Positions 74 through 49,863 of a stretch of 49,863 bases of DNA are shown in pieces. This DNA comes from Elusimicrobiota bacterium. Its GTDB lineage: Bacteria > Elusimicrobiota > Elusimicrobia > FEN-1173. A program made the position numbers and the translations under genes. The DNA lies in NCBI GenBank assembly GCA_016788905.1, contig JAEURZ010000021.1, positions 1 to 49,863 of the forward strand, written 5' to 3'. The notes below the pieces were generated by a model that saw only the letters and a program-made list of their open reading frames with translations, was not told where the DNA came from and did no database searches. Every line of letters starts with the position of its first letter. The stretch's first letter is position 1.

Positions 74-1141
74 GGGACGTTGCATTTATTGTATTAAATA
101 AGTAAATTTGTTCTATGCCACGACAAGCGCGATTGGATGTCCCGGGGGCGTTGCACCATGTCATGGGGCGTGGAATTGAACGGCGGGCCATCTTTTTGCG
201 GAGAGAAGACCAAGAAGACTTTCTGAGTCGCTTGGAAAAACTGGTGGAAGTGAAGGGGTTCTTGATTTATGCCTGGGCGTTAATGCCCAACCACTTTCAC
301 TTATTAGTGCGGTCAACGGCCACACCGCTTTCCCATTCCATGAGAAGTCTTATGACAGGTTACGCTGGATATTTCAATCGAACTCACCATCGGACGGGGC
401 ATCTTTTTCAAAATCGATTCAAGTCCATTCTCTGTGAGGAAGATCCATATCTTTTAGAGCTCGTTCGATATATTCACCTCAATCCACTTCGGGCAAAGAT
501 AGTTGGTTCATTGAAGGATTTGGAACATTCGCCTTTGACGGGTCACGCGGTCCTTAATGGAACCATGAAAAGGGGATGGCAGAATACGAAGGAAGTGTTA
601 AGTCGATTTTCAAAATCAGAAGAGAAAGCTATCCGAAAATATCGGGCATTTATTGCAGAGGGAGTGGGAAAACCCATACCAAAAAACTTGGAGGGTGGGG
701 GTCTTATCCGAAGCATGGGCGGCTGGTCAGCGGTAGAATCACTTCGCAAAGGGCGAGAAAAGTATTGCTCCGATGAACGGATATTGGGGGACAGTGATTT
801 TGTCGGGAAGCTACTTAAGGAAGCGGAGAGAGAAGCCGTAGAACATAAGAGATTGATGGTCAAATGGTCTCTTGAACAATTGATTGAGCTGACGTGCCAT
901 AAAATGGGGGTGTCGGTCTCTTCTCTTTCTGGAGGGAGCAAGGAGCGAAGTGTGGTATTGGCCCGGGAAGGCCTGTCCTACCTGTGGGTCAAAAAGTTTA
1001 AGCGCAGTGGGGGGGACCTGGTCCGCGCGACGGGGATGAAACCGATAACAATATATCAATCAGCTCGCCGAGGAGAAAAACGGGCTTCGGATTGGTTGGC
1101 GTGGTTGGGAGAATAGTTTAATACAATAAATGCAACGTCCC
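74..1141 (+). mobile_element. Y1-transposase element bounded by a perfect 25-bp inverted repeat
   Basis: Bases 74-98 and 1117-1141 are exact reverse complements of each other (25 of 25). The right copy begins on the base after the transposase stop codon, so the element is essentially one gene between two arms. No target-site duplication is visible outside the arms. Y1 (HUH) transposases move single-stranded DNA and normally recognise subterminal hairpins. REP-associated members of the family instead sit between inverted REP sequences, which is the closest known parallel. A possible -35 (TTGCAT, 80-85) lies inside the left arm, 17 bases from a -10-like TAAATT (103-108). Confidence 0.75.
115..1116 (+). 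CDS. REP-associated tyrosine (Y1/HUH) transposase with DnaA-like C-terminal domain
   Basis: The protein has 333 residues. The N-terminal ~150 residues are a Y1_Tnp domain. The HUH motif is H60-F61-H62 in MPNHFHLLV, and the likely catalytic tyrosine is Y119 in VRYIHLNP. Such enzymes cut and rejoin single-stranded DNA. The last ~85 residues (LTCHKMGV, SKERSVVLAREGLSYL, TGMKPITIYQ) resemble the helix-turn-helix domain IV of DnaA, an arrangement known in long members of this transposase family and probably used for end recognition. No Shine-Dalgarno is visible. A TAAATT hexamer ends 6 nt before the ATG, so the message may be leaderless. The frame is intact. Family assignment is firm; the role of the C-terminal part is inferred. 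Confidence 0.88.
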   Translation: MPRQARLDVPGALHHVMGRGIERRAIFLRREDQEDFLSRLEKLVEVKGFLIYAWALMPNHFHLLVRSTATPLSHSMRSLMTGYAGYFNRTHHRTGHLFQNRFKSILCEEDPYLLELVRYIHLNPLRAKIVGSLKDLEHSPLTGHAVLNGTMKRGWQNTKEVLSRFSKSEEKAIRKYRAFIAEGVGKPIPKNLEGGGLIRSMGGWSAVESLRKGREKYCSDERILGDSDFVGKLLKEAEREAVEHKRLMVKWSLEQLIELTCHKMGVSVSSLSGGSKERSVVLAREGLSYLWVKKFKRSGGDLVRATGMKPITIYQSARRGEKRASDWLAWLGE

Positions 1142-16339: not shown

Positions 16340-16412
16340 GGGGCTGTAGCTCAGCTGGGAGAGCGCCTGCATGGCATGCAGGAGGTCGTCGGTTCGATCC
16401 CGATCAGCTCCA
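16340..16412 (+). tRNA. tRNA-Ala (anticodon GGC)
   Basis: The 73 bases fold as a cloverleaf. The acceptor arms are GGGGCTG (16340-16346) and CAGCTCC (16405-16411), with one G-T pair. The D arm contains TAGCTCAGCTGGGAGAGC. The anticodon stem CCTGC/GCAGG encloses loop ATGGCAT with anticodon GGC. The T arm contains GGTTCGATCC. The discriminator is A16412, and CCA is not encoded (CAA follows). It reads GCC and GCT codons. Confidence 0.96.

Positions 16413-49329: not shown

Positions 49330-49863
<534 letters not shown>

Follow-up and report, generated by a model that had tools for sequence, protein, structure and literature searches.

The stretch of DNA analysed here (the window, 49,863 nt from an Elusimicrobiota bacterium) carries a Y1 transposase gene tightly enclosed by a perfect inverted repeat (Table 1), and this element is a TIRYT, or TIRtron, a kind already published. 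It is likely that the element possesses two ends of its own, each made of a tag and a copy-specific mirrored interior, and that together these form a mobile unit. Our best reading is an active or recently active transposon with the arms as its ends, and the window copy is intact and probably functional. A preliminary description of the window had already pointed to the 25-bp repeat with its right copy at the stop codon, and both details hold: the mirror is complete and the right arm follows directly on the TAG at 1114-1116. The left arm is separated from the start codon by 16 nt, the arm-to-arm spacing is 1018 nt and the inverted-repeat score of the element's own pair is 25. The 8-nt half-site repeat described below for relatives is weak in the window interior (3/8 positions, read by eye).

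Table 1. Features of the transposase element in the window.
Feature	Position	Strand	Remarks
Left arm: tag GGGACGT (74-80) and copy-specific interior (81-98)	74-98	+	25/25 complementary to 1117-1141
Y1/HUH transposase gene	115-1116	+	intact, 333 aa
HUH motif, H60-F61-H62	292-300	+	H60 and H62 invariant in 73 sequences
Y119 codon, presumed catalytic tyrosine	469-471	+	Y---NP context (Y119-N123-P124); Y119 and N123 invariant in 73 sequences
C-terminal domain, residues 251-333	865-1113	+	predicted DnaA domain IV fold
Presumed recognition helix, residues 310-321	1042-1077	+	limits from structure model
Right arm: perfect inverted copy of left arm	1117-1141	-	immediately 3' of stop codon

Several other features of the window were recorded. 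A dispersed repeat of about 76 nt at positions 1-77 runs up to the first bases of the left arm, and the start of the contig coincides with it. Five further copies of this repeat, 100% identical over 74-77 nt, are situated at contig edges (C10, C28 and C13) or beside a run of N (two in C4), and it may represent the terminus of an insertion sequence or one edge of a repeat array. A perfect 13-nt inverted repeat with a spacer of 21 nt (AAATTCCCAATGG at 1858-1870 and CCATTGGGAATTT at 1892-1904) spans the start of the gene at 1867, which we take to be rsmI-like from a reading of its protein. In an Rfam scan of the window only two tRNA genes, at 16340-16412 and 49512-49598, exceed the gathering score.

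The window transposase matches Y1_Tnp with an E value of 3.4e-11 (43.7 bits, cut-off 23); it scores under the cut-offs of NCBIfam transpos_IS200 (13 bits, cut-off 55) and of the equivalog NF047646 (66.4 bits, cut-off 80). In an AlphaFold2 model built from 73 sequences (mean pLDDT 90.3), residues 1-195 match best the E. coli TnpA_REP structure 4er8 (Z 15.7, rmsd 2.6, 157 residues aligned), and residues 251-333 match DNA-bound DnaA domain IV in 3pvp and 1j1v (VIA-align, Z 11.0, rmsd 2.1, 83 residues aligned in each). The family profile compared with the PDB at E <= 0.01 gave four distinct sequences, all of them DnaA, over positions 247-328. Bac_DnaA_C was found at E <= 0.01 in 49 of the 73 members, the window protein having 0.0062, which is under Pfam's cut-off. 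According to the model the protein is a TnpA_REP-like core followed by a DnaA domain IV-like domain, and the DnaA-like C-terminus of the preliminary description is thereby borne out by profile and by structure.

TIRYTs were named in 2013 (Di Nocera et al., PMC3733652) and are described there as Y1 transposase genes that sit tightly between long terminal inverted repeats in place of REPs; a single genome may hold several such genes with different TIRs. Terminal inverted repeats are therefore not as unusual for HUH transposases as had been supposed for this element. The window element resembles TIRYTs in its long non-REP terminal inverted repeats around the gene, mirrored at 25 of 25 bases, and in its TnpA_REP/IS200-type tyrosine transposase with HUH motif and catalytic tyrosine. 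It differs in its tag, CGGGACGTT / GGGACGT, which does not fit GGGGWSAS, a motif present in many published TIRs (PMC3733652) but not defining for them. The private mirrored interiors and their half-sites, the unit ends and the empty site reported below go beyond the text of PMC3733652, figures aside. In the largely open-access literature searched, papers on TIRYTs by name were PMC3733652 and PMC6006769 only, and private mirrored interiors, half-sites and unit ends for TIRYTs were absent from the titles and abstract openings examined. In the classification of Quentin et al. (2018, PMC6006769) TnpA_Y1 subclass 2.1, with the class 2 Y---NP context and a C-terminal Bac_DnaA_C or HTH domain, is equated with TIRYT, and the window protein agrees with it in Y119, N123, P124 and its DnaA-like C-terminus. 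That paper reports no insertion-sequence features for the subclass, whereas the relatives examined here show a moving unit and covariation of the domain with the arm interior.

TnpA_REP/RAYT proteins share the core fold, 4er8 being the best structural match, but the GTAG-tagged hairpins of that group are missing here, the arms of the window family do not fold, and the DnaA-like domain is an addition. The window's genome is also, unlike theirs, without dispersed arm copies or short arm dimers; a search of it for REPIN-like GGGACGT-N20-50-ACGTCCC gave none. The arms had been thought far longer than REPs, yet 25 nt falls within the 20-40 bp given for REPs in the abstract of PMC3733652, and what truly sets the arms apart is that one arm by itself forms no hairpin. 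With IS200/IS605 elements (IS608, ISDra2) the family has the HUH/Y1 fold in common; those elements recognise subterminal hairpins, and the window family has long inverted repeats instead.

Eight Y1_Tnp matches were found in the window's genome, seven of them complete copies. The eighth (L008, positions 1-215 of contig C37 in genome G000) is a transposase fragment at a contig edge with 70 aa before the stop. Each of the seven complete copies has its own mirrored arms, with the tag GGGACGT in six and GGGGTCA in L002, and the quality of the mirror ranges from perfect (25/25 in the window, 24/24 in L004, 27/27 in L007) to clearly imperfect (L006 and L002). The five other complete members of the clade have the tag in common with the window element and differ from it in their interiors; their proteins are 42-45% identical to the window protein, and that of L002 is 27% identical. 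Since the clade proteins are only 42-45% identical, one recent burst of copies does not explain the mirror. For the window copy the perfect match need not imply recent movement either, as had been suggested for it, because proteins of this low identity each keep mirrored arms and because same-locus copies in related species change both arms together.

It had also been proposed that the 25-mer be searched for elsewhere, its occurrence at this element only being held against the proposal. With up to three mismatches the whole genome of the window contains no site beyond the element's two arms, so the 25-mer is indeed unique to them, but this does not refute the arms as ends, because the copies share the tag and each has an interior of its own. 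The window copy has no second copy in its genome and no syntenic empty site among the related genomes examined: rsmI was located in three of five, and in none of these three was the lipoprotein gene or the transposase found in the 3.7 kb examined. The clade is patchy in the host phylum (19 of 198 genomes at E <= 1e-70). Relatives were found in 22 of 72,556 plasmid records and one of 50,697 phage records, none of them spanning 80% of the query, and a PHROGs search left the transposase without a matching family.

To describe the arms across relatives, 94 loci were analysed, which after removal of five without a complete ORF and one duplicate protein gave 88 unique copies. Tags were placed by motif and position, with complementarity unused, and both were found in 73 of the 88; the remaining 15, lacking a tag on one or both sides, were excluded. 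In the interior, taken as the 18 nt next to the tag on its inner side, left arms match their own right arms at 0.860 and the right arms of other copies at 0.419 (n=73); none of 10,000 permutations reached the observed own-arm mean. The own right arm was the best or tied best partner in 55 of the 73 copies, and the best inverted-repeat score was at least 15 in 67 of 73 own pairs and in 14 of 300 cross-copy pairs. These own-versus-cross statistics over 73 copies rule out chance or an assembly artefact as the source of mirrored arms. The mirror extends outside the tag at -2 to -4 (own 0.51-0.59, cross 0.35-0.42) and fades beyond. Interiors in the relatives also tend to contain a pair of direct half-sites spaced by 8 nt, in some cases by 9 nt: self-repeat at lag 8 is 0.448 against 0.336 (z 8.2, 0/2000 permutations), at lag 9 it is weak (z 2.9, 4/2000), and the remaining lags between 4 and 12 gave no signal. 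Folding of the left arm alone, scored with RNA energy parameters against mononucleotide shuffles, revealed no hairpin (mean z 0.15, z < -2 in 3 of 73).

The unit that moves in relatives has the arms at its limits, its termini lying some 7-18 nt beyond the tags. In Desulfosarcina alkanivorans PL12, whose genome is complete, four copies lie within 40 kb, all in the same orientation; they are pairwise 99.6-100% identical over 1109-1129 nt and have different flanks, and identity ends beyond the tags, by 8-18 nt on the left and by 7-17 nt on the right. Behind the fourth copy a repeat of the terminal 99-102 nt of the unit, 98-99% identical, is found, and after it come shorter pieces of the end; this repeated unit end accounts for a ninth arm match in PL12. 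Nested tandem right-end repeats at L276/L277 of D. alkanivorans (about 6,922,048-6,922,166) seemingly have one common outer terminus. The nested right-end repeats in this species are possibly the trace of repeated one-ended joining. Among the 68 of 73 copies with enough flank, extra tags in the same orientation were found outside the arms on 26 of 136 sides (3.5 expected), although for a few of the right-hand cases the choice of the nearest tag may be the sole cause; a search of 45 of about 59 nt for extra tags of reverse orientation gave none on any side. A stricter head-to-tail end test gave 10 of 142 sides and none in shuffled flanks.

Homology between L026 and L039 likewise stops at the arms (96.9% identity over 1102 nt). 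We dropped this pair as proof of inter-phylum transfer: elsewhere the two contigs share blocks of 88-90% identity, and one of the bins may be in error. In the related genus g31, a set of 19 genomes, one locus was compared in 16 loci. It is occupied in four genomes, with flank anchors 852-866 nt apart, and empty in G061, where the anchors are 10 nt apart and the transposase search gave no match; G066 has 1157 nt of other sequence there, and in ten the right flank was not found within the stretch compared. Another locus of G066 (L213) is near-empty, 52 nt being left with an apparent remnant of the right arm (read by eye). The view of the preliminary description that the element terminates in its arms is upheld in relatives by the identity that ends at the arms and by the empty site.

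These observations bear on a quite different interpretation, in which a resident, domesticated gene is controlled through its arms, these serving as operators or transcript structures, and moves rarely or has ceased to move. The position of the left arm just upstream of the start codon (16 nt in the window) would suit an operator, the 25-mer occurs at one element only in the window's genome, and certain loci persist across species with an unchanged arm (L141, L154, L158 and L159). An operator, however, needs no right arm, which often overlaps the end of the coding region, and the identity of recent copies that ends at the arms, together with the empty site, speaks for movement. Nor was a promoter found at the arm: the arms had been said to hold the probable -35 of the gene, but a sigma-70 scan of positions 1-1300 gave no promoter-like site (shuffles, mean 1.6). 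We therefore regard domestication as improbable.

Comparison of copies at the same locus shows how the arms change. Arms score at least 14 in 43 of the 46 unique copies from loci L099-L169, mostly of g31. Where both flanks are kept, the differences between arms, read by eye, are largely mirrored: 6/6 of the left-arm differences for L149/L161, 3/4 for L149/L162 and 2/2 for L106/L152. At L141, L154, L158 and L159 the arm is unchanged across same-locus copies. For 11 of the 12 same-locus pairs the dS of the core exceeds that of the flanks, the ratio being about 1.2 to 11 (for L106/L152, 1.09 against 0.23 and 0.22), and because of this excess purely vertical descent of same-locus copies was dropped. 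The same excess is the reason why same-locus copies may be replacements and not inherited, that is, elements exchanged in place by relatives that bring their own matching pair of arms. In accordance with this, the copies of loci A, B and G among the seven loci tested are not monophyletic, and several loci have just one flank in common. Against it stand loci C, D, E and F, which are monophyletic; the copies of locus C constitute one clade when all copies are considered (support 0.988) and nevertheless differ in both arms, and L106/L122 have equal core and flank dS. Replacement in place is thus a possibility to which we give clearly less than even weight. Only one flank is conserved in L105/L125, L136/L148, L136/L156 and L141/L150, a pattern that chromosome breakpoints at the arms, or second insertions there, would produce.

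The mirror could also be upheld mainly by exchange of DNA, through pairing of the two arms of one strand or through end-swapping by the enzyme, one arm being copied onto the other, with recognition by the protein being secondary. The tags of L149, L161 and L162 change in mirror while the inner part stays constant, the single unmirrored difference in L162 is what an intermediate would be expected to show, and the nested tandem end repeats show repeated joining of ends. Copying from arm to arm leaves the likeness of half-sites within an arm unexplained, and it equally fails to explain why the C-terminal domain follows the interior once the core is taken into account. We hold such exchange as the main cause to be rather doubtful.

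That relationship was examined with the protein and arm sequences of the family. The C-terminal region is the most divergent part of the protein, with a mean pairwise identity of 0.28 against 0.64 for the core. Given the core, the C-terminus and the interior have a partial rank correlation of 0.271 (reached in 0/500 permutations); for core and interior, given the C-terminus, it is 0.105. In the covariation of residues and bases, computed with invariant columns removed, 13 of the top 40 raw pairs fall in residues 301-333 (23 of 193 columns), with the core residues A84, V65 and F49 also among the top raw pairs. The strongest raw pair joins residue 312 and arm position 13, and residue 312 also pairs with position 21, 8 nt on. 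After APC the top pairs include residue 315 with position 14 and with position 22, again 8 apart, while the first pair is G85 with position 11, and residues 301-333 and residues 1-60 give 11 each of the top 40. In a matched-pair control residue 315 ranks 1/245 (positions 14/22) and residue 312 ranks 16/245 (13/21). Both residues map by profile alignment onto the DnaA recognition helix. The covariation is suggestive, not proof, of a DnaA-like domain that reads the arm interior, and it makes plausible the earlier proposal that the C-terminal domain recognises the arms.

Quentin et al. (PMC6006769) consider it doubtful that the flanking repeats are what the DnaA-like domain reads, and they suggest fork targeting, and a domain aimed in this way at a conserved host site would be in accordance with its DnaA domain IV fold. 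A conserved host target is nevertheless unlikely, since the domain is the most divergent part of the protein and covaries with the interior of the copy's own arms; we give this published suggestion little credence for the present family.

Under the reading that we prefer, a transposon that terminates in its arms, the HUH core probably works in the vicinity of the tag, and it is probably the interior that the DnaA-like domain reads. Action of the core at or near the tag would be analogous to the guide sequences of TnpA_REP and IS200/IS605 (PMC8266576), and binding of the DnaA-like domain to the interior half-sites is suggested by its fold and by the covariation. If the domain binds the half-sites, each transposase would recognise mainly its own arms, and the mirrored ends would be kept because one protein must read both. 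The mirror may in addition be helped by exchange between arms able to pair with each other, and the substrate would be either double-stranded DNA or a stem formed by the two arms of one strand. More tentatively, the arms could constitute a re-programmable private address, in which the DnaA-type recognition helix changes in step with the four half-sites (two in each arm) and each copy mobilises mainly itself; the arms would then be renewed by the end-joining of the enzyme, with the nested tandem end repeats as its trace.

The role of the DnaA-like domain of TIRYTs was left open in 2018. With the anatomy of tag, tandem half-sites and mirrored arms, and with the unit ends and the empty site, the target of this domain and the mobility of TIRYTs are now directly testable. 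If the domain does read the interior, the family would be a natural set of many matched protein-DNA pairs for the recognition code of DnaA-type domains, and it would provide transposases whose recognition is largely restricted to themselves.
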